Assembly (NCBI RefSeq): GCF_003206615.1
Contig: NZ_PZJW01000006.1
Location: forward strand, 434,001-498,000
Length of the DNA stretch: 64,000 nucleotides
Reading direction: 5' to 3'
DNA from: Salinicola acroporae
Lineage (GTDB): Bacteria > Pseudomonadota > Gammaproteobacteria > Pseudomonadales > Halomonadaceae
Positions 54,097 through 64,000 of this stretch are shown one piece after another. The notes beneath the pieces were generated by a model. That model was not told where the DNA came from and did not search any database. It saw only the letters and a list, made by a program, of their open reading frames with translations. A program made the translations under genes and the position numbers. The stretch's first letter is position 1. Each line of letters starts with the position of its first letter.

Positions 54097-54729
54097 ATGA
54101 CATCGATCGGCGTGCTCAGTGGAGACATCGTGGCTTCCCGCGATATTGCCGACAAACGCAAGTTGCGCGGCGCGATCGATACCGGTATCGAGCGGCTCGG
54201 CCAGACGTTTGACGCGGTGGGCACGCGGTTCCGTGGCGACGCCTTTCAACTGGCCGTTCCGAGGATCGAGGACACCATCTTCGCGGCCGTTCTCATGCGT
54301 GCCAGCCTGCTCGAGCACTCTCCTTCTCGACGCCAGACCTGGGACGCACGAATCGCCATCGGTATCGGCGAGGGCGAAGTGCCCGCGCCGGACGACTTCA
54401 TCAATGCGGATGGGGAGGCATTCGTGCGCTCCGGTCAGGGCCTGGACGCGTTGGGCCAAGGCCATCAACGGCTGGGCCTGTTCCTCCCATCACCCCAACC
54501 GGATCTGAATCTGCTGATCCAGTTTGCCGATGACATCATCAGTCACTGGAGCCACAACGCCGCGGAAGTGGTTCGCCTGAGCCTAACCTCCGATCACTCC
54601 CAAAGTGAACTGGCCAAACGCCTGGAACGCTCTCAACCGACCATCAATCGCCGCCTGAGCGCAGCACGCTGGTCGCTGATCCACGCCTTTCTCGAGTTCA
54701 CCCGGGAACGCCTGGAGGCCATGAAATGA
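54097..54729 (+). CDS. satD: SatD-family protein: cyclase-like domain plus HTH
   Basis: The 210-residue protein fits the SatD family. By eye the N-terminal 130 residues follow class III nucleotidyl-cyclase motifs: GDIVASR (9-15, compare ADIVGFT), RFRGDAFQLAV (44-54, compare KTIGDAFMAVF), RIAIGIGEGEV (85-95) and GEAFVRSGQGLDAL (106-119, compare GEAVNLAARLEAL). The two metal Asp positions (D10, D48) are kept, while the catalytic Asn/Arg pair is not evident. The C-terminal 165-198 (SQSELAKRLERSQPTINRRLSAARW) is a helix-turn-helix. It overlaps DUF3307 by four bases. Function is unknown; a cyclase-derived sensor-regulator is inferred. Confidence 0.65.
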   Translation: MTSIGVLSGDIVASRDIADKRKLRGAIDTGIERLGQTFDAVGTRFRGDAFQLAVPRIEDTIFAAVLMRASLLEHSPSRRQTWDARIAIGIGEGEVPAPDDFINADGEAFVRSGQGLDALGQGHQRLGLFLPSPQPDLNLLIQFADDIISHWSHNAAEVVRLSLTSDHSQSELAKRLERSQPTINRRLSAARWSLIHAFLEFTRERLEAMK

Positions 54730-55472
54730 GCGAGAACGGTCTGTCGCTGCTCCTGGCGCTGCTGCTGTCGCACACCGTCGCCGATTTCATTCTGCAGAGT
54801 GACGCCTGGGCGCGCCAGAAGCAGCAACACCATTTCCGCGCGCGCTCGCTCTACTGGCATGTCGGCATTCACATGTTGCTGTGCCTGGCCATCCTGATCG
54901 CTTTTGGCATTCCCTTGCGTGAGGCCTTGATCAGCACGGGAATCGTGGGTTTGACCCACTGGATGATCGACACGCTGAAAAGCTACATGCCAGCCCACCG
55001 CGTCAGCTTTTTCGTTTTCGACCAACTTCTCCACCTTCTGGTTCTGGTCGTCGTCTGGTGGTGGGTCATCGGTGGCAGCGCCCTGCCCCTCGCCATCGAT
55101 ACGAGCCTGTTGTGGCAACCCCCAACGCTGCTGACTGCCCTGGCGTATCTGCTGGTCCTGCGCCCGTCTTCGGTCCTGATCGCGCTGATCATGCGTCGCT
55201 GGAGCGAGGGCGTCGATACCCGTGGCACCCTGGCCGACGCGGGCGCCCGAATCGGCATGCTGGAGCGTTTTCTCATTCTGACATTCGTGCTGAGCAACCA
55301 GATGGCCGCGATCGGCTTTCTCCTGACCGCCAAGTCGGTGCTGCGTTTCGGCGACCTCTACGAAGATCGCGACCGGAAGCTCACTGAATACGTGCTGTTG
55401 GGCACGATGTTGAGCTTCTCGATCACCCTCACACTGGGCCTACTGACACGTTATCTGCTGAGTGTGCTATGA
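54726..55472 (+). CDS. DUF3307 membrane protein
   Basis: The 248-residue protein has about six to seven membrane helices. The family signature is at the N-terminus: LSHTVADFILQSD, then WHVGIHMLLCLAILIAF, and HWMIDTLKSY. Function is unknown. DUF3307 genes are often next to satD-type genes; here ATGA overlaps couple it to satD upstream and amiD downstream, implying one translation unit. It may be a membrane partner or effector of the SatD regulator. Confidence 0.8.
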   Translation: MSENGLSLLLALLLSHTVADFILQSDAWARQKQQHHFRARSLYWHVGIHMLLCLAILIAFGIPLREALISTGIVGLTHWMIDTLKSYMPAHRVSFFVFDQLLHLLVLVVVWWWVIGGSALPLAIDTSLLWQPPTLLTALAYLLVLRPSSVLIALIMRRWSEGVDTRGTLADAGARIGMLERFLILTFVLSNQMAAIGFLLTAKSVLRFGDLYEDRDRKLTEYVLLGTMLSFSITLTLGLLTRYLLSVL

Positions 55473-56425
55473 AGCTCCCTGGCACGCGGTCGCTGCACCA
55501 ACTCATCGCCCCGCTTGTGGCCCTGCTATCGCTGGCAGCGTTGGCCGGCTGTGCCGGTTCATCGAACATGGAGATCCGGCCAGGGTATGTGGCGGACCAC
55601 ACCTACCAGTCGCGGGCCTACAATCACCGCGTCCGCTACCTGATCCTGCACTACACCGATTCTGAAGCGCCTCGCGCCCTTAGCACACTGCTTGGCCCTC
55701 ATGTCAGCTCGCACTATCTGGTGGCTCGGCACCCGGGGGCCGAAGGCGGCGGCCCCCGAGTGTGGCAGCTGGTCGACGAGAACGATCGGGCCTGGCACGC
55801 CGGGCTCAGCGCCTGGGAAGACCGCACTCAACTCAACGACACGTCCATCGGCGTCGAGATCGTCAATCGTGGGCCTCGCGAAACGGCTGCGGGTAGGCAG
55901 TGGCAGTCCTATCCGGCCCCGCAGATCGAGGCAGTCATCGCCTTGGCGAGAGATATCATCCAGCGCTATGACCTTCCTCCGACCTCGATTCTCGGCCATT
56001 CGGACATCGCGCCCTCGCGCAAGATCGACCCGGGGCCGCGCTTTCCGTGGAAGAGGCTGCACGAAGCCGGCGTGGGAGCCTGGCCCGACGATGAAGACAC
56101 CGACACCTATCGGCGTCGTTTCGCCCACTGCTCGCCAACCATGGCGCAATACCAACACGCGCTGAGCGCCTACGGCTATCGACTCGCGGCGACGGGCATC
56201 CTCGACGAGGAGACCCGCGACGTCACCAGAGCGTTCCAGATGCACTTTCGACCCGCCAGCTATGCCGGCCAACCGGACGACGAGACCGCCGCCATTCTCT
56301 GGGCGCTGCTGGCCCGCTATCGGCCACAGGCGCTGGTGGAGACCGATCTGGCGGTGCCGAGGGGCTGTCTCGAGCCGAAGCAAGAGACAGTCGACAGCGC
56401 CCGGGTACAGCAATTCACGCACTGA
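55469..56425 (+). CDS. amiD: N-acetylmuramoyl-L-alanine amidase AmiD lipoprotein
   Basis: The 318-residue outer-membrane lipoprotein cleaves the amide between MurNAc and the stem peptide. A lipobox (LAALAGC) ends the signal peptide. The amidase_2 zinc site is in RYLILHYTDSEAPRAL (His), and HSDIAPSRKIDPGPRFPWKRL holds a second His, the catalytic region. A C-terminal PGRP/peptidoglycan-binding-like domain follows (YQHALSAYGYRLAATGILDEETRDVTRAFQMHFRP). Its last 11 bases overlap ydcN on the other strand. It is coupled to the DUF3307 gene. Confidence 0.9.
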   Translation: MKLPGTRSLHQLIAPLVALLSLAALAGCAGSSNMEIRPGYVADHTYQSRAYNHRVRYLILHYTDSEAPRALSTLLGPHVSSHYLVARHPGAEGGGPRVWQLVDENDRAWHAGLSAWEDRTQLNDTSIGVEIVNRGPRETAAGRQWQSYPAPQIEAVIALARDIIQRYDLPPTSILGHSDIAPSRKIDPGPRFPWKRLHEAGVGAWPDDEDTDTYRRRFAHCSPTMAQYQHALSAYGYRLAATGILDEETRDVTRAFQMHFRPASYAGQPDDETAAILWALLARYRPQALVETDLAVPRGCLEPKQETVDSARVQQFTH

Positions 56426-56966
56426 AAGGATAGTGAATCAGATCGTGAACCTTTGCTGGCGCCCGCCCCCGGTTGCGATACCCATGCGGCTGGTCCGCCG
56501 CGAAGCGCAGCACTTCCCCTGCCGCCAGCGTTTGCCACTCCCCCTCGACGAAAAGCTCCATCTCGCCTTCCAGCACGACCACGTGCTCGATCACCCCCGG
56601 AGCATGCGGCGACGACTCGCTCAGACAGCCCTGAGACAGCTCGATCGCAAACATCTCGAATCCGAGCATCGGGTCGAACGCGAACAGCGGTGTGACGATC
56701 ATGCCGGAGGCATCACGGTGCCTGGGAGGTGAGGTCGGGCGATGCACGACACCGCTTTCACCAACCAGGAAACGCGATAGCGGTGCCTGCAGTCCGCTGG
56801 CGATCTTCCACAGCGTCGCGATGGTTGGGGTCGACTCGCCCCGCTCGATCTGACCCAGCATTGCCTTGCTGACGCCGCAGAGCCTGGCGACCCGGTCAAG
56901 GCTCAGGCCGCGCTCAGTGCGGAACTGCCTCATGCGCTGCCCGATGGCCGCAAGATCTGGACTCAT
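56415..56966 (-). CDS. ydcN: XRE-family regulator with C-terminal cupin (YdcN-like)
   Basis: The 183-residue regulator has an N-terminal HTH_XRE (MRQFRTERGLSLDRVARLCGVSKAMLGQIERGESTPT, core LCGVSKAMLGQIERGES) and a C-terminal cupin (HVVVLEGEMELFVEGEWQTLAAGEVLRFAADQPHGYRN). Such proteins sense small molecules and repress adjacent transporters. ATG 56966 has GGGAGGG five bases upstream; an in-frame TTG at 56978 is also present. It is divergent from ydcO, as in E. coli, with a perfect palindrome between them. Confidence 0.88.
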   Translation of the reverse strand: MSPDLAAIGQRMRQFRTERGLSLDRVARLCGVSKAMLGQIERGESTPTIATLWKIASGLQAPLSRFLVGESGVVHRPTSPPRHRDASGMIVTPLFAFDPMLGFEMFAIELSQGCLSESSPHAPGVIEHVVVLEGEMELFVEGEWQTLAAGEVLRFAADQPHGYRNRGRAPAKVHDLIHYPFSA

Positions 56967-57066
56967 GATCCCTCCCAATGCTTATACCCCCGGCGCCAGG
57001 TCCAGGCCGCCGCCCTGGACCGCTTCCGTTGTGCCACTTCGCCAGTGTCGTGCGCGATAGCGGAGA

Positions 57067-57095
57067 TTGTCGAAATTCGCGATGTGCGTTATAAC
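57067..57095 (+). promoter_or_regulatory. sigma-70 promoter of ydcO
   Basis: TTGTCG (57067-57072) and TATAAC (57090-57095) have the ideal 17-base spacing. The -10 lies inside the operator palindrome, so YdcN binding would block it. Confidence 0.65.
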
Positions 57096-57102
57096 GCACA
57101 TC
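57081..57102. promoter_or_regulatory. Perfect 22-bp palindrome, probable YdcN operator
   Basis: The half-site GATGTGCGTTA is followed immediately by its exact reverse complement TAACGCACATC. It spans the ydcO -10 in the divergent ydcN-ydcO spacer. Confidence 0.75.
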
Positions 57103-57125
57103 CCATCTCGATTTCGAGCATTGAC

Positions 57126-58319
57126 ATGGCACCTCCCCCGGCCAAGCGCCAATCCCCTCCGCCTCTATTCACCGCCTCGCACATCACGGCGGGATTCGTC
57201 GCCGTGCTGGTCGGCTACACCAGCTCCGCGGTGATCATTTTCCAGGCAGCGGCGGCAGCAGGCGCGTCGCCGGCGCAGATCGGTGGCTGGCTGAGCGCGC
57301 TCGGTCTCGCCATGGGCCTCACGTCGATCGGCCTCTCCCTGCACTTTCGGCAACCGATTCTGACGGCCTGGTCGACGCCGGGGGCGGCCCTGCTGGCTAC
57401 CAGCCTGCCCGGCCTGCCACTGAGCGAAGCCATCGGTATCTTCCTGTTCAGCGCCGCAATGGTCGTCGTGTGCGGCGTCACCGGTTGGTTTGCCAGACTG
57501 ATGCAGATCATCCCCCAGTCCATCGCCGCCGCCATGCTGGCGGGCGTTCTACTGCGCTTCGGCCTCGACGCCTTTGCGTCGATGGAGACCGACTTCATCC
57601 TGGTGCTGTCGATGTTTCTGACCTACCTCGCCGCCCGGCACTGGCTGCGTCGGTACGCCATCCTGCTCGTGCTGGTGGTGGCGCTCGGCGTCGCCGCCCT
57701 GCTGGGAGAGATCGACGCGGCGGGAACCCATCTGATCCTGACGCTGCCACAACCCATCTGGCCGACTTTCTCGTTGTCCAGCCTGATCGGCGTGGGCATT
57801 CCACTCTTCGTGGTGACGATGGCCTCTCAAAACGCACCCGGTGTGGCGACGCTGCGGGCAGCCGGCTACGATACCCCGGTATCGCCGTTGATGATCTGGA
57901 CCGGGCTGACAACGCTTCTGTTGGCGCCGTTCGGCGCATTCAGCATCTGCCTGGCGGCCATCACAGCGGCCATCTGCATGGGACCCGACGTCCATCCGGA
58001 GGCCGACAAACGTTATCCCGCGGCCATGTGGGCAGGCGGATTCTATTTGCTGGCAGGTCTCTTCGGCGGCTCGATCGGGACGCTCTTCGACGCCTTGCCC
58101 CCGGGGCTCGTACTGGCGATAGCCGGGCTCGCGCTGCTGCCAACCATCGGGAGCAGTCTTCATCGCGCGCTATTGGAGGCCCACCAGCGTGAGGCCGCCC
58201 TGGTGACCTTCCTGGTCACCGGTTCCGGCGTCACGCTGTTCGGCGTGGGTGCCGCATTCTGGGGGCTCGTGGCCGGCATGCTGGTACTGATCACCGCCTC
58301 CCCGCAGCGCCCGACCTGA
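57126..58319 (+). CDS. ydcO: BenE-family benzoate/H+ symporter-like transporter YdcO
   Basis: The 397-residue inner-membrane protein has about 11-12 helices and is of the BenE family (benzoate:H+ symporters). Hallmarks include TAGFVAVLVGYTSSAVIIFQAA, LTAWSTPGAALLATSLPG (the conserved PGAAL), FSLSSLIGVGIPLFVVTMASQNAPGVA (core TMASQNAPG) and FGAFSICLAAITAAICMGPDVHPEADKRY. Natural substrate of the E. coli homologue YdcO is not established. ATG 57126 is chosen by homology. It faces ydcN and ends three bases from the converging transglutaminase gene. Confidence 0.92.
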   Translation: MAPPPAKRQSPPPLFTASHITAGFVAVLVGYTSSAVIIFQAAAAAGASPAQIGGWLSALGLAMGLTSIGLSLHFRQPILTAWSTPGAALLATSLPGLPLSEAIGIFLFSAAMVVVCGVTGWFARLMQIIPQSIAAAMLAGVLLRFGLDAFASMETDFILVLSMFLTYLAARHWLRRYAILLVLVVALGVAALLGEIDAAGTHLILTLPQPIWPTFSLSSLIGVGIPLFVVTMASQNAPGVATLRAAGYDTPVSPLMIWTGLTTLLLAPFGAFSICLAAITAAICMGPDVHPEADKRYPAAMWAGGFYLLAGLFGGSIGTLFDALPPGLVLAIAGLALLPTIGSSLHRALLEAHQREAALVTFLVTGSGVTLFGVGAAFWGLVAGMLVLITASPQRPT

Positions 58320-58321
58320 CC

Positions 58322-59224
58322 TCAGATACCGCTCAAGGCGCCTTGCCGGAAGCCTTCCCCGGGGCTCTCGATCGGCTCGACATCCACCGCCACCTCGAGT
58401 TCGTGGGCGCCGCCGCCGTTCATGACCCCTTTGAGCGGCGGCACATCACCGTAATCCCGCCCCCACCCCAGCACGAGATGGCGCTCGCCCGGCACACTGC
58501 CGTTGGTGGGGTCGTACTCGAGCCACCCCCAATTCGGAATGTGCACCGCCACCCAGGCATGCGAGGCATCGGCGCCAACCAAGCGCGGCTGTCCGGGCGG
58601 CGGCAGCGTCTCGAGGTAGCCGCTGACGTAGCGTGCCGACAACCCCAGAGAGCGCAGGCATCCAATCATCAGGTGCGCAAAGTCCTGGCAGACACCCCGC
58701 CGCGCTTCCAGCACCGTCAGCACCGGGGTAGCCAGCGACGAGAACTCGGGATCGTAGGTGAAATTCTCGAATATCCTGCGGTTGAGATCGTCCACACCCT
58801 CTCTCAGCGACCGACCCGCCGGAAAGCTGGGCGCGGCGAACGCGCGCAGTGCAGGCTCGCGGGATACGAACGGAGAATCCAGCTGGAACTGCCGCAGTTC
58901 CGGCGTACGGCCGGCATGACGCGCCGCGGATTGCCAGTCATCGTCGATCTCTTCCGGCGGCAGCGGCCGTCCCAGTGTCTCCAGACAGGTGATGGCCGTG
59001 ACCGACAACGCCATATGAATCTCCTGGACACTGAAGAAGTTCACCCGATTGCCGAAGAAGTCGACCCGCTGATGGCTGACCGCGGGGCGCGGCACGATAT
59101 CGAGCTCGGTGCCATCGACCCTCTGCCAGGAGAGCGCTCGGGGCACTACTCGTGCCTCGTTGTGACACAGTGATACCGGCGCGGCGTAATCGTAACGAGT
59201 CGAGTGGCGGACACGGTAACGCAT
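58322..59224 (-). CDS. Transglutaminase-family protein
   Basis: The 300-residue protein has a transglutaminase N-terminal bundle (MRYRVRHSTRYDYAAPVSLCHNEARVVPR) and a catalytic core with triad C179 (RRGVCQDFAHL), H222 (ASHAWVAVHI) and D238 (WLEYDPTNG). This matches the transglutaminase-like cysteine protease class (COG1305) found beside circularly permuted ATP-grasp genes. There is no signal peptide. It is 28 bases downstream of the ATP-grasp/alpha-E gene and converges with ydcO. It likely processes peptide or amide bonds made by the ligases; this is inferred. Confidence 0.88.
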   Translation of the reverse strand: MRYRVRHSTRYDYAAPVSLCHNEARVVPRALSWQRVDGTELDIVPRPAVSHQRVDFFGNRVNFFSVQEIHMALSVTAITCLETLGRPLPPEEIDDDWQSAARHAGRTPELRQFQLDSPFVSREPALRAFAAPSFPAGRSLREGVDDLNRRIFENFTYDPEFSSLATPVLTVLEARRGVCQDFAHLMIGCLRSLGLSARYVSGYLETLPPPGQPRLVGADASHAWVAVHIPNWGWLEYDPTNGSVPGERHLVLGWGRDYGDVPPLKGVMNGGGAHELEVAVDVEPIESPGEGFRQGALSGI

Positions 59225-59252
59225 GACGAAATCCTGTAACGGTAGACGTGGC

Positions 59253-61781
59253 CTATGGCGCCTGCATGGGGACCAACTGACGCGGCGTTTCGACGTGGCT
59301 GAAATGGCTGTGCTCGATGGCGAGCGAAAGGCTGCCGAGCGGCGCGGCCAGCGCATCCAGCAGCACCGCCAGGGCCTGCCTGGCATCGTCGTCGTCATCC
59401 AGTCTCGAGAGCCGTTCCAGATCGGCCAGGTGCAGCGCCGAACGCGCCTGGATCAGCAGGCGGGCCTCTTCACTTCGGTAAGGGGTGTTGCTGGGCTGCG
59501 GCAGGCGCTCGATCTGGCGCTCCAGGCGCTTGAACATGTAGCCTACCGAGCGCGGGTTGGCCTCGTCGAACAGCAGCAGATCGAGAATGGCTGCGGGATG
59601 AAGCTCGCTCCGATAGCGTCGCCGGTAAGCTGTCGCATTGTCGGTCGTGGCCAGGACCACGTCCCACAGTGACTCGCCGGCATGAGCCGAATCGATCAGC
59701 GCCAGTCTCAGCAGAGTCAATGTCGCCAGGGAGCGCTCGAGGAAACGCCCGATATCCATGAAACGCCAGCCGAAATGGTGCGGCATGGTCTCGTTGCAAA
59801 GCCCGAAAAAGGCAGCGAGTTGCGTGATCACCGTCTCCACCGATCGACGCCCCTGATCGATGCCCGCCAGGGGGAGGCGGCCCGACTCCTGCCGCAGTTG
59901 ATTGAAGACCCGCCAGGCATCGTCACCGAGATGATCGCGCACCGCGCGACAGTTGTTGGCCATGCGTGAGACGAGCGTCGGCAGGCTGCCGTCCCGGTCC
60001 TGCTGGAACAGCGCCAGCAGGCGTTCGCGATACGCGGAGAAGCGTTCCTCCGACATCTCGTCGGGTGAGAGTGCCTCCGGCTCCATCAGGTGCAGGATAT
60101 CGGCCAGCGTGTCATCCGCGAGCCCTTCTTGATCCTGCTCGAGCAGTCGGTAGAGCGCTTCGCGCAGCAGCCGGGAGCGGACATCGAGACGCTCGCCATA
60201 ACGCCCCACCCAGAACAGACTATCGGCAACGCGACTGGGAAGATCGGCACCGTCACGCGTCACCACCAGAGGCTGTCGCGAACGTCGCAACCGGCTGACG
60301 TGGGGCTGCGGTTCGTAGGCGGTAACCCAGACGTCCTTGACGCACTGGCTGGACCGCATGGCAGTCTCCGGCGCGCCCTGCCAGGCCACGCCGCCGGGCA
60401 TTACCTCGTAGTCGCTGAAGCGGTAGTCCGCATCGAAGACCGCCTGGCTGAAGCAGCGGACATTGAATGTCGAAGGCGCCAGGCGGGCGCAGTCGCGGCT
60501 GAAAAACGGCGCGGTGGCGGCGACCAGCGGCTGCTGGGCCACATACCGGTCCGGTTGGGCAACGATCGACTGGCGCAGGCGTCCGGCCGCCTCTTCGCTG
60601 AGACCGGCGGGAGAGACCCAATTCCGATCGCCGTCGAGGCGCTGGAAGTCCAGCGTCTCGAAGCCCGCCATCGCCCAGGCGAGCCCTTCCGGTTGCCCGC
60701 ACCAGTGGCGTTCGGGGCTGCCGATCTGCAACGTCTCGCCGAGCAACCGCTCGCACAGTGACGGCAGGTAGGCGGCGATCAGGGGATGCTCCAGCGCTCC
60801 CACCCCCGGCGGGTTGGCGACTCCGACGCCACCCGCCCGTATCGCCTCCAGCAGGCCCGGCACGCCGATCAGCGAGTCGCCACGCAGTTCCAGCGGATCG
60901 ACCCAGCCGTCGCCAATATGGCGCAGCAGCACGTCGACGGGCTGGAGGCCACCCAGCGTGCGCATCCAGAGCCGTGAATCCCGCACCACCAGATCCCCGC
61001 CTTCCACCAGCGCCAGATTGAGATAGTTGGCCAGATAGGCGTGTTCGAAATAACTGTCGTGGCCAGGCCCAGGCGCCAGCAGCGCGATGGTGGGATGATC
61101 GAGATTGAATCGTGACAGCGACGACAGAGAATGGTGTTGCGCGCCGAGAAACCCGGCGAGTCGCTTCAGCGGTGCGTTGCGGTAGAGGTCCGGCAGCGCG
61201 CGGGCCATGGCGATACGGTTCTCGAGAGCGAATCCCATCCCCGAAGGAGACTGGACACGGTCGGCCAGCACCTGCCACTGACCCTCGGCGTTCCGGGTCA
61301 GATCCACGCCGTGCAACAGCAAGCCCGAGTCGTCGTCGCTGAAGAGTTGATCGCATGGAAGCAGAAAGGCAGGGTTGGCATACAGCGCATCGGCCGGCAG
61401 AATGCCCTCCGCCAGCATCCGGCGGGGGCCGTACATATCCTTGAGCACGGCGGCCAGCAGCCGGCTGCGTTGACGCAAGCCCTGCTCGAGGCGTTTCCAT
61501 TCCCGAGGAGAGATCACCAGAGGCAGCGGATCCAACCACCACTGCCGGCGACTGCCCGCTTCGTCATTGGGCAGGTTGTAAGTCACGCCATTCTCGTGCA
61601 GCAGGTGCTGCACTTCCTCCGCTCGCTGAACCAGCGACTCCCGCCCCAGTCGTTCCAACTGGTGGAGCAGCGGCAGCCAGCGGCGGCGCACCGAGCCATC
61701 GGAAGCGACCAGCGCATCGTGGACATCGCCGGAGGTATAGGTCTCCAGCCAGGAAGGGCGAAGCGTCTCGGTTACTACCAT
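59253..61781 (-). CDS. Circularly permuted ATP-grasp + alpha-E fusion protein
   Basis: The 842-residue protein fuses two usually separate proteins. Residues ~1-490 are a circularly permuted ATP-grasp domain (LKDMYGPRRMLAEGILPADALYANPAFL, LVEGGDLVVRDSRLWMRTLGGLQPVDVLLRH and NPPGVGALEHPLIAAYLPSLC, with cores MYGPRRMLAEGILP and ANPPGVGALEHP). Residues ~505-840 are an alpha-E helical domain (VADSLFWVGRYGERLDVRSRLL, NNCRAVRDHLGDDAWRVFNQL and MPHHFGWRFMDIGRFLERS). ATP-grasp members join carboxylates to amines with ATP; the substrate here is unknown. Comparative genomics has proposed a role in peptide tagging or peptide synthesis with transglutaminase and GS-like partners, which flank it here. Confidence 0.9.
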   Translation of the reverse strand: MVVTETLRPSWLETYTSGDVHDALVASDGSVRRRWLPLLHQLERLGRESLVQRAEEVQHLLHENGVTYNLPNDEAGSRRQWWLDPLPLVISPREWKRLEQGLRQRSRLLAAVLKDMYGPRRMLAEGILPADALYANPAFLLPCDQLFSDDDSGLLLHGVDLTRNAEGQWQVLADRVQSPSGMGFALENRIAMARALPDLYRNAPLKRLAGFLGAQHHSLSSLSRFNLDHPTIALLAPGPGHDSYFEHAYLANYLNLALVEGGDLVVRDSRLWMRTLGGLQPVDVLLRHIGDGWVDPLELRGDSLIGVPGLLEAIRAGGVGVANPPGVGALEHPLIAAYLPSLCERLLGETLQIGSPERHWCGQPEGLAWAMAGFETLDFQRLDGDRNWVSPAGLSEEAAGRLRQSIVAQPDRYVAQQPLVAATAPFFSRDCARLAPSTFNVRCFSQAVFDADYRFSDYEVMPGGVAWQGAPETAMRSSQCVKDVWVTAYEPQPHVSRLRRSRQPLVVTRDGADLPSRVADSLFWVGRYGERLDVRSRLLREALYRLLEQDQEGLADDTLADILHLMEPEALSPDEMSEERFSAYRERLLALFQQDRDGSLPTLVSRMANNCRAVRDHLGDDAWRVFNQLRQESGRLPLAGIDQGRRSVETVITQLAAFFGLCNETMPHHFGWRFMDIGRFLERSLATLTLLRLALIDSAHAGESLWDVVLATTDNATAYRRRYRSELHPAAILDLLLFDEANPRSVGYMFKRLERQIERLPQPSNTPYRSEEARLLIQARSALHLADLERLSRLDDDDDARQALAVLLDALAAPLGSLSLAIEHSHFSHVETPRQLVPMQAP

Positions 61782-61956
61782 CGTCTTTTATCTAGGTATG
61801 CGCCGGGACTCCTTCCCAGCGGCCATTCATCACCGGGCTCCTGCCGGTGTCGTGGGGCCGGCCAGATCGCCGCCCCTCTCTCCACTGTAACGCGCTGGAC
61901 TAGCAACGCTCGATTCAAAAAACTTGCGCCCGACGGATGATGGGCTGGAACCGAAC

Positions 61957-64000
61957 CTAGCCGATCCCCGTCGTCCGTTCACGTAGATCCAGGGTGAACG
62001 GATAATCGTCACTGATCGATGCGTCGGGCACGTCATGGGTGCCCTGGCGGTGGCCGTGAGGCTGGAACCGGGCCAGGCGACGCGCCTCGGCCTCATTGGC
62101 ATTGACCGGGAAAGTCTCGAAGTTGCGCCCGGCCGGATGCGAGACGTGATAGCGGCAGCCGCCGATCGAGCGCCGATTCCAGGTGTCGATGATGTCGAAC
62201 ACCAGCGGCGCGTGAACCGGGATCAGGGGATGGAGCGCCGACGGCGGCTGCCAGGCCCGGTAGCGTACCCCGGCCACCGCCTCGCCATTGCGCTCCGTGG
62301 CCCTCAACGGCACGCGGTGTCCATTGCAGGTCACCACGTAGCGATCGCCGCTCATCCCGCCTACCTTCACCTGCAGACGCTCCACCGAGGAGTCCACGTA
62401 GCGCGAGGTGCCACCCCCGGCGGCCTCCTCGCCAAGCACGTGCCATGGCTCGATCGCCTGACGTAGCTCCAATTCAACGCCCTGATACTGCACGCGCCCG
62501 AGAACCGGGCAACGAAACTCCAGGAACGGGGCGAACCACTCCGGCTCGAAGACCATTCCATCGTTGCCGAGTTCGACCAGTATCTCCTCGAGGTCGCGCC
62601 AGAGATAGTGCGGCAACATCCAGCGATCATGCAGCGCCGTGCCCCAACGTACCAGATTGCCGTATGCCGGGCGGTCCCAGAAGCGCGCAACCAGCGCACG
62701 GATCAGCAAGCCCTGCATCAGGCTCAGGCGGGGGTGCGGCGGCATCTCGAACCCGCGCAACTCGAGCAGCCCCAGCCGGCCGGTGTCGCTATCCGGCGAG
62801 TAGAGCTTGTCGATGCAGAATTCGGCACGGTGGGTATTGCCGGTGAGGTCGGTCAGCAGATGGCGGAAGAGCCGATCCACCAGCCAGGGCTGCGCGGCCT
62901 CCTCCCGACTCAATTGACCCAGCGCGATCTCGAGCTCGTGAAGCGACTCGTGACGTGCCTCGTCCACGCGCGGGGCCTGACTGGTGGGGCCGACGAACAA
63001 TCCCGAGAAGAGGTAGGAGAGCACTGGATGCCGCTGCCAATAACTGACCAGGCTACCGAGCAGCGCTGGCCGACGCAGGAACGGCGACTCCGCCGGTGTC
63101 GCTCCACCCAAGGTCACGTGATTACCGCCACCGGTGCCGGTGTGGCGGCCGTCGAGCATGAACTTTTCGGCCCCCAGACGCGTCTGTCGGGCCTCTTCGT
63201 AGAGGATCTCGGTCTGGGCGACCAGTGCCGCCCAGCTCGGCGCCGGCATGATATTGACCTCGATCACCCCGGGATCCGGGGTGATCATGAACTGTCTGAG
63301 GCGCGCATCGGCGGGCGGCGGATAGCCCTCGACGAACACCGGCATCTCAAGTTCCGCAGCCGTATGCTCGATCGCCGCGATCAACGCCAGATAGTGGTCG
63401 ATCTCCGTCACCGGCGGCACGAAGACGTAGAGCTGGCCATCGCGCGTTTCCAGGCACAGGCTGGTACCGATGACGTCGGGCTGGTCGTTGACCGCAGTGG
63501 CTTCGGCACTCCCGGCAGCATGGCGGTTACTGCTCAAGGCGTTGTAAGGCAGACTCTCGGCGCTCTCCAGCCGCCCATCGGTTTCCGCGTCGGGCCTCGC
63601 CATGGCATGCCTCACTGCGTGGTAACGACGCGTCACACCAAAGTGCGGGTCGGCCATGGCCAATGGCGGCGCCCACAGCGACCGTGGCTGATCGACACCT
63701 CTGAACGCCGACTGGGGTAGCGACGACAGCGGCAACCGCAGCCCCATCGGCGAATCGCCCGGAATCAGGTAGAGATGATCGCGCCGCAGCGGCCACTCGC
63801 CACTCTGCCAGCCACCCAGCCGGGGGGCGTAGCGCAGCGGTAGCGCATACCCCGTCACGGTGCCGAGCCCCCTTTCCAGTAGCCGGGCCAGCCGGCGGCG
63901 CTCTTCATCGTCGTCGAGATCGTGCTCGCGAGGATCCACATCCACCGCCAGCGTCTGCTCGCGCCACAGATAGTAGATGGCATCCTCGTAGCCCGGCAGC
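61957..64000 (-). CDS. DUF2126 protein (transglutaminase/GS-like amidoligase), partial
   Basis: About 680 C-terminal residues are present; the gene continues past the right edge. The upstream reading frame stays open to the edge and reads LPGYEDAIYYLWREQTLAVDVDPREH, typical of the family interior. The GS-like part carries KFMLDGRHTGTGGGNHVTLGG (key HTGTGGGNHVTLGG), and family segments RRPALLGSLVSYWQRHPVLSYLFSG and RFWDRPAYGNLVRWGTALHDRWMLPHYLW are visible. Known full-length members are ~1,100 residues with an N-terminal transglutaminase domain. A GTG at 63945 is internal, not the start. It is 175 bases upstream of the ATP-grasp gene on the same strand. Confidence 0.88.
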   Translation of the reverse strand, partial: LPGYEDAIYYLWREQTLAVDVDPREHDLDDDEERRRLARLLERGLGTVTGYALPLRYAPRLGGWQSGEWPLRRDHLYLIPGDSPMGLRLPLSSLPQSAFRGVDQPRSLWAPPLAMADPHFGVTRRYHAVRHAMARPDAETDGRLESAESLPYNALSSNRHAAGSAEATAVNDQPDVIGTSLCLETRDGQLYVFVPPVTEIDHYLALIAAIEHTAAELEMPVFVEGYPPPADARLRQFMITPDPGVIEVNIMPAPSWAALVAQTEILYEEARQTRLGAEKFMLDGRHTGTGGGNHVTLGGATPAESPFLRRPALLGSLVSYWQRHPVLSYLFSGLFVGPTSQAPRVDEARHESLHELEIALGQLSREEAAQPWLVDRLFRHLLTDLTGNTHRAEFCIDKLYSPDSDTGRLGLLELRGFEMPPHPRLSLMQGLLIRALVARFWDRPAYGNLVRWGTALHDRWMLPHYLWRDLEEILVELGNDGMVFEPEWFAPFLEFRCPVLGRVQYQGVELELRQAIEPWHVLGEEAAGGGTSRYVDSSVERLQVKVGGMSGDRYVVTCNGHRVPLRATERNGEAVAGVRYRAWQPPSALHPLIPVHAPLVFDIIDTWNRRSIGGCRYHVSHPAGRNFETFPVNANEAEARRLARFQPHGHRQGTHDVPDASISDDYPFTLDLRERTTGIG

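Follow-up and report, generated by a model that had tools for sequence, protein, structure and literature searches.

Three adjoining genes at the right-hand end of a 64,000-nucleotide stretch of the Salinicola acroporae genome (contig NZ_PZJW01000006.1, positions 434,001 to 498,000; G000:C29:434001-498000 in our numbering, and here called the window) encode a transglutaminase, a circularly permuted ATP-grasp fused to an Alpha-E domain, and a DUF2126 protein, which raises the question of which of these proteins could act as a ligase and what the system as a whole could make. An amidoligase/transglutaminase/Alpha-E/N-terminal nucleophile (NTN)-hydrolase system was reportedly predicted by Iyer et al. 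in 2009. A previous reading of the window (the original prediction) had assigned the genes to it, and the shared domain set upholds this: the locus belongs to that predicted and functionally unsolved system. To this we add that the fused protein is unlikely to be a working ligase, that an apparently intact one adjoins it, that the NTN-hydrolase Anbu is dispensable for the form of the system that contains DUF2126, and that relatives are commonly under nitrogen control, which is not evident at the window locus.

The fusion (59253..61781, minus strand) is a chain of 842 amino acids in which Pfam recognises CP_ATPgrasp_2 (3.4e-113, residues 87-466) and Alpha-E (1.9e-64, residues 514-827), with the ATP-grasp fold spanning residues ~1-490 and the Alpha-E helical domain residues ~514-827. 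Using Foldseek, its AlphaFold2 model (mean predicted local distance difference test score, pLDDT, 84; predicted template modelling score, pTM, 0.81) matched 3n6x, annotated as a putative glutathionylspermidine synthase (E 3.3e-28, template modelling score 0.82 on the target), and also glutathione synthetases. Among the best 50 of 368 structural matches, 42 fell below E 0.001 and comprised 3n6x, glutathione and homoglutathione synthetases and similar proteins, glutathionylspermidine synthetase, trypanothione synthetase, YgiC/YjfC and Cp1B. The structural match of residues 1-490 to ATP-grasp that had been anticipated is thus borne out by both model and search.

The original prediction had also hung on the nucleotide- and metal-binding residues of this half, and these are gone. 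We compared nine active-site-type residues between 79 stand-alone and 120 fused ATP-grasps from 141 gene neighbourhoods, the pattern of losses having first been seen in a smaller set of 42 and 40 sequences. These neighbourhoods were chosen because they contain DUF2126, Alpha-E or the fusion, and many sit on short contigs, so counts from them are not those of random samples. Eighty named loci, spanning Pseudomonadota, Acidobacteria, Verrucomicrobia, Gemmata, Bacteroidota groups and others, were retrieved through a motif in the Alpha-E half, independently of the state of the ATP-grasp half. All nine residues were kept in 79/79 stand-alone proteins, whereas the fused proteins kept none (43 proteins), one (52), two (23) or three (2), and the fused protein of the window kept 0/9. 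The Glu of the EDN motif was found in 79/79 stand-alone and 1/120 fused proteins, while the Asn of EDN, the string GGYG, the string NSSQGGG and the Asp of DLR were each found in 79/79 and 0/120, respectively, with the Asn of NSSQ likewise kept in 0/120 fused proteins; the Lys before the loop was kept in 79/79 and 57/120. In the window's protein, A173 and R175 replace the Glu and Asn of EDN, Q380 replaces the Lys, and the GGYG loop has lost its glycines by deletion. By analogy with the glutathione-synthetase family, we take the Glu and Asn to bind Mg, and the Lys and loop to bind ATP. An unrooted FastTree tree split the 120 fused and 79 stand-alone ATP-grasps exactly, with support of 1.0 and a long branch. 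We infer from these residues that activity has been lost, and that the fused ATP-grasp is probably a pseudo-ligase. Presumably the Pfam text of CP_ATPgrasp_1 and Alpha-E already names active and inactive ATP-grasps, the inactive ones often fused to Alpha-E, and for this reason we do not claim the pseudo-ligase state as new. The fusion had been taken to indicate a fixed stoichiometric complex of ATP-grasp and Alpha-E; the single fused chain stands, but what it fixes is a pseudo-ligase with Alpha-E and not a working ligase, and the intact ATP-grasp and another Alpha-E come from separate, divergent genes.

Both of these genes lie past the right edge of the window on the plus strand and were identified from open reading frames (ORFs) and Pfam. 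The stand-alone circularly permuted ATP-grasp (L002:8459-10006) matches 3n6x by sequence at E 4.6e-161 and retains every compared active-site residue. The stand-alone Alpha-E (L002:9960-11009) and the fused one are the two Alpha-E copies of the S. acroporae genome, both above the Pfam cut-off and with no others found, and in stand-alone copies the ER motif (E34/R35 and E184/R185 in L002 numbering) is among the positions conserved in at least 95%. We also examined 150 genomes of the host phylum (Fisher p values from this sample ignore relatedness), in which fusions and shorter-frame CP_ATPgrasp_2 matches, equated with stand-alone ATP-grasps, were counted by eye from frame length. A stand-alone ATP-grasp accompanies the fusion in 43 of the 44 genomes that carry it, the one without being G149, which is 74% complete and whose locus lies where a contig ends. 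Likewise, 44/44 have a second Alpha-E match, shorter-frame or partial. One genome has, beside the fusion and the stand-alone copy, an extra CP_ATPgrasp_2 match (G069:C1:12316-13440, 437 bits, 485-residue frame).

The gene arrangement of the three window genes is as originally described, with minus-strand transcription running from transglutaminase-DUF2126 through the fusion to a stand-alone transglutaminase-fold enzyme of 300 amino acids (58322..59224). The 3' part of transglutaminase-DUF2126, recognised by ORFs, Pfam and a DUF2126 search of the S. acroporae genome, occupies 61957..64000 on the minus strand and is truncated by the window edge. Its remainder was located past that edge, giving a gene of 1124 codons' worth of protein (1124 amino acids; L002:4958-8332, minus strand, equivalent to extrapolated window position 61957-65331) with its own N-terminal transglutaminase domain. 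The stand-alone ATP-grasp and Alpha-E pair is divergent from these three genes. The nearest named relative of the fused protein that we found is that of Salinicola socius, at 85% identity.

These genes co-occur strongly in related genomes, as had been expected. Alpha-E is present in 83/150 genomes, DUF2126 in 46/150 and the fusion in 44/150, with fusion and DUF2126 together in 40/150, the fusion only in 4 (G024, G114, G126 and G149) and DUF2126 only in 6 (Fisher 2e-25), and every DUF2126 genome and every fusion genome has Alpha-E. Among the six, the DUF2126 match lies at or near a contig end in G049, G085 and G097, while the fusion seems truly missing from G036, G064 and G076. In loci L075, L076 and L071 of these last three genomes, respectively, transglutaminase-DUF2126 adjoins Anbu with no fusion in the stretch, and no fused-length Alpha-E match was found genome-wide. 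Of the 141 neighbourhoods, 120 hold the fusion; the transglutaminase is next on the same strand in 114, and transglutaminase-DUF2126 lies at most 400 bases upstream on the same strand in 75/120 fusion loci, with no DUF2126 within the available stretch in 27/120. L123, L146, L168 and L170 have the genes for ATP-grasp, Alpha-E, the fusion and the transglutaminase in a single row, DUF2126 being absent from the available stretch, and the genome of L123 (G126) has no DUF2126 match. At L135:8879-9781 (Vreelandella zhaodongensis) only a 300-residue transglutaminase precedes the fusion, with no DUF2126 part found and the rest of the cluster present.

Clustering of 1295 flanking ORFs of at least 110 amino acids, with the 25 largest clusters inspected and named by eye, gave as the largest an aldehyde dehydrogenase (12/141 loci) and an ABC ATPase (9/141). 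We rejected both as system partners, taking them to be common families, presumably near the genome base rate; the remaining large clusters reflect synteny among close relatives or shadow ORFs.

We also considered whether the other enzymes of the locus retain their residues. In its 358-residue form the stand-alone transglutaminase ORF gives Pfam matches to Bact_transglu_N (1.8e-23) and Transglut_core (3.7e-20); the 300-residue count begins with the Met at position 59224, and the longer frame predicted by the ORF finder runs into the upstream gene. A recount from this Met recovers the claimed catalytic triad, C179/H222/D238, intact (C237/H280/D296 in the longer frame, an offset of 58). Across the 141 neighbourhoods the stand-alone transglutaminases keep the Cys in 134/135, the His in 133/135 and the Asp in 135/135. 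In the transglutaminase domain of DUF2126 proteins, counting sequences with letters there, Cys and His are each kept in 92/92 and Asp in 92/93, the remaining one being an X. DUF2126 proteins (28 sequences) are 54-68% identical to that of S. socius, and E721, H768, R818 and R889 (S. socius numbering), which may belong to a glutamine synthetase (GS)-type site, are among its many invariant positions. The transglutaminase half of the S. socius DUF2126 model matches 3isr (4.8e-13). The Pfam name 'putative amidoligase' for DUF2126 is a label and not fold evidence.

An Anbu or proteasome-like gene had been suggested as something to seek past the right edge, and no Anbu was found in the neighbouring 15 kb. 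Nor did a profile built from 18 Anbu proteins, positive in 52/150 genomes, match anywhere in the S. acroporae genome (4.37 Mb, 99.99% complete), whose sole PF00227 match is HslV beside HslU; the profile likewise found no match in G050, which is from the same family and has the whole cluster. PF00227 itself was discarded as an Anbu detector, being too insensitive and giving, for example, no match in G036, where our profile A4 finds Anbu. Of the 46 DUF2126 genomes, Anbu was found in 26 and not found in 20, some of which are incomplete; 51/52 Anbu genomes have Alpha-E, and in some families, such as those of L102 and L103, Anbu sits between the fusion and DUF2126. Anbu is therefore a frequent companion of Alpha-E and is not required by the DUF2126 form, and because 20/46 DUF2126 genomes lack a match we treat it as an accessory and not a defining part of that form.

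A different peptidase closes the S. acroporae locus, a Zn-ribbon metallopeptidase (Pfam Peptidase_Mx, 1.2e-82; L002:11140-12282, minus strand, past the right edge) that carries HEIGH and is convergent with the stand-alone Alpha-E. Peptidase_Mx occurs in 15/141 neighbourhoods, and 21/22 Peptidase_Mx genomes have Alpha-E (p 1.3e-5, relatedness ignored). Among 97 DUF2126 neighbourhoods, 14 hold Peptidase_Mx, 13 hold Anbu and none holds both, which is not telling because only ~1.9 joint neighbourhoods would be expected. The idea that Peptidase_Mx substitutes for Anbu was rejected, as it is present in 10/26 DUF2126 genomes with Anbu and 5/20 without. In Saccharospirillum (L126) it lies between DUF2126 and the fusion, the position of Anbu in some other families.

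Sigma-54-like sites scoring at least 14 precede 24/112 system operon starts (20 distinct) compared with 5/608 control starts in the same stretches, an enrichment whose p value of 2.6e-16 is inflated by related sequences and which used an approximate weight table and a control set in which some ORFs may be spurious. Loci of the same family type as the window's (L080, L134 and L181) do have such sites. The Burkholderia cenocepacia I35_5080-5083 cluster has values of -6.0 to -9.4 in a table for an ntrC mutant (PMC5491218), and in Pseudomonas putida the Anbu-type PP_2685 and the ATP-grasp PP_2688 are 4.44 and 3.99 log2 up, respectively, on nitrate versus ammonium (PMC8050072). Anbu is described as induced in nitrogen-limited P. 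putida and unchanged in expression under other conditions (cited in PMC5666114), in marine metagenomes these domains are found in association with domains of urea metabolism (PMC3597751), and a Bradyrhizobium CP_ATPgrasp_1 gene is preceded by a listed sigma-54 site (PMC13207237). A Sinorhizobium meliloti genome-wide association study (PMC8407117) and a sigma-54 survey (PMC12316311) do no more than mention COG2308 and COG3484. Nitrogen control is thus common in relatives and is not evident at the window locus.

Compared with the system reportedly described by Iyer et al., the locus has the same circularly permuted ATP-grasp, Alpha-E, transglutaminase and transglutaminase fused to a predicted GS-like ligase, but differs in that no NTN-hydrolase (Anbu) was found in its genome and in that both halves of the system occupy one divergent locus with Peptidase_Mx at its end. 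It shares the fold of glutathione synthetase, glutathionylspermidine synthetase and the YgiC/YjfC group in its ATP-grasp half, although the fused copy lacks the catalytic residues and the intact copy adjoins it. The four-gene Anbu operon of Yersinia bercovieri, as described in PMC6376114, has the same ATP-grasp, Alpha-E and transglutaminase families, whereas the window locus, in which no Anbu was found, adds transglutaminase-DUF2126 and the pseudo-ATP-grasp/Alpha-E fusion. The B. cenocepacia cluster similarly groups DUF404/407, DUF403 (Alpha-E), a transglutaminase and a large transglutaminase-like protein; it is NtrC/sigma-54 dependent, whereas no sigma-54 site was found for the window genes, and in the available text of PMC5491218 the large protein is not specified as DUF2126 and a fusion is not named. 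The rlo operon of Pseudomonas aeruginosa combines an ATP-grasp with an inactive transglutaminase and was set aside as the same system, its make-up as given in PMC12239564 being different. PMC10697835 and PMC12096838 were set aside as unrelated or marginal, and a literature search for Mycobacterium tuberculosis homologues by locus tag gave one unrelated listing.

What, then, could such a set of proteins make? Our best explanation, held at roughly an even chance, is a two-part amide-bond-forming module that handles a small peptide or amine conjugate under nitrogen shortage, and not a protein tag. Part A, encoded divergently past the window, would consist of the glutathione-synthetase-type ATP-grasp with its compared active-site residues and the stand-alone Alpha-E, and part B, in the window, of transglutaminase-DUF2126 (a predicted GS-like ligase), the pseudo-ATP-grasp/Alpha-E and the second transglutaminase. 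The intact ATP-grasp would activate a carboxylate as an acyl phosphate and couple it to an amine. The fused pseudo-ligase would pair with this live ATP-grasp and bring in Alpha-E, its role being to scaffold, to bind substrate or to regulate. The DUF2126 ligase may then add or cap a second amide, and the two Cys-His-Asp transglutaminases may work on the amide by way of a thioester, transferring or hydrolysing it, so that the product, a small peptide or amine conjugate, would be built and dismantled when nitrogen is short. The gene set and its linkage, the retained and lost residues, the grouping of the pseudo-ligases in one clade, their occurrence together with a stand-alone ATP-grasp, the lack of an Anbu match and the promoter-site enrichment in relatives are observations, whereas the loss of activity, the pairing of subunits, the order of steps, the substrate and the role in nitrogen economy are inferred. 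Solved members of the group to which the intact ATP-grasp belongs, such as glutathione, glutathionylspermidine and trypanothione synthetases, link amino acids, peptides and polyamines to one another, and for this reason a small conjugate seems to us likelier than a protein tag. To our knowledge, none of the structural relatives of the fused model tags proteins. YgiC/YjfC are peptide-spermidine ligases according to the title of a reference in PMC12568646, where Cp1B is called pseudodipeptide-forming. Our preferred reading is small-molecule amide or peptide, and perhaps amine, ligation; protein tagging, one of the functions originally offered, is possible, with nothing here in its favour.

Several observations weigh against this explanation. 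The fused proteins retain the Asp of EDN (117/120), the Arg of DLR (119/120) and the late Lys of KD (105/120), so a ligand site may survive in the fused ATP-grasp, and L172 is the single fused protein that retains the Glu of EDN. Among the best 50 of 368 PDB matches of the fused model, no non-ATP-grasp structure falls below E 0.078, which leaves Alpha-E without a solved relative to guide its function. The S. socius DUF2126 model is only middling (pLDDT 74) and matches glutamine synthetases weakly, at E 0.11-0.14. In the intergenic region of the window itself no sigma-54-like site was found, the best scores being 5.0 and -2.2, and S. acroporae may therefore not share the nitrogen control; no urea or amine-use gene was evident by eye in the 25 largest flanking clusters. 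The nitrogen papers, as far as their available text goes, cover genes of the stand-alone or Anbu type and do not name the fusion, and no stable complex was found among the Y. bercovieri Anbu-operon proteins in the account given in PMC6376114.

The best-surviving alternative, which we consider possible but doubtful, is that the system is catabolic and scavenges nitrogen, with the transglutaminase-fold enzymes being mainly amidases or isopeptidases and the ligases priming inert amines or amides for breakdown, much as gamma-glutamylation primes putrescine for use. The nitrogen-limitation regulation seen in relatives would fit this, as would the metagenomic association with urea-metabolism domains (PMC3597751), the pseudomurein endoisopeptidase among the weak matches of the transglutaminase-DUF2126 model (E 0.07), and the aldehyde dehydrogenase and ABC ATPase neighbours, although these are presumably near base rate. 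However, the flanking clusters inspected include no evident amine-oxidising or urea gene, and the missing sigma-54 site before the window's genes counts here too. Somewhat less probable still is protein tagging, in which the ligases would build or attach a peptide tag on proteins, isopeptide links would come from the transglutaminases, and Anbu or some other peptidase would remove the tag. The literature has proposed this, by the accounts in PMC6376114 and PMC5666114, and the near-constant presence of Alpha-E in Anbu genomes agrees with it, but Anbu was not found in the S. acroporae genome or in 20 DUF2126 genomes, and the structural relatives of the ATP-grasp half act on free peptides and polyamines. 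Furthermore, small ORFs (30-115 amino acids) at most 2.5 kb from core genes gave no widespread tag candidate among the 12 largest of 192 clusters, the two largest (23 and 13 loci) overlapping Anbu genes and the rest covering at most 6 loci, those shown being close relatives; the clustering used BLAST at 1e-4, which has little power with proteins this short, and a tag could be encoded at another site. Ligase activity of the fused ATP-grasp through other residues is very improbable, since despite the retained Asp, Arg and Lys that could leave a ligand site, the fused proteins keep at most three of the nine residues that every stand-alone protein has.

On the left of the locus, the plus-strand ORF at 57045-58319 appears by eye to encode a BenE-like membrane transporter; it is convergent with the transglutaminase gene and ends 2 bases short of it. 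Further left, around 54097-55472 and 55469-56978, a SatD-like protein, a membrane protein, an AmpD-like amidase and an XRE-cupin regulator were named by eye.

No functional study of the DUF2126 form was found in our literature search. Taken further than our best explanation, and only tentatively, the DUF2126 half may be a pathway of its own that does not depend on Anbu. In it, an ancient dead ATP-grasp would be tied obligately to a live one from a separate gene, and a small amide conjugate would be made and unmade during nitrogen limitation across many phyla. The gene set is common, and this analysis indicates which of its ATP-grasps keeps the active site, that the DUF2126 form can do without Anbu, and that nitrogen seems to regulate relatives; from this an experimenter can choose the protein to assay, the mutant to construct and the condition in which to seek the missing product.

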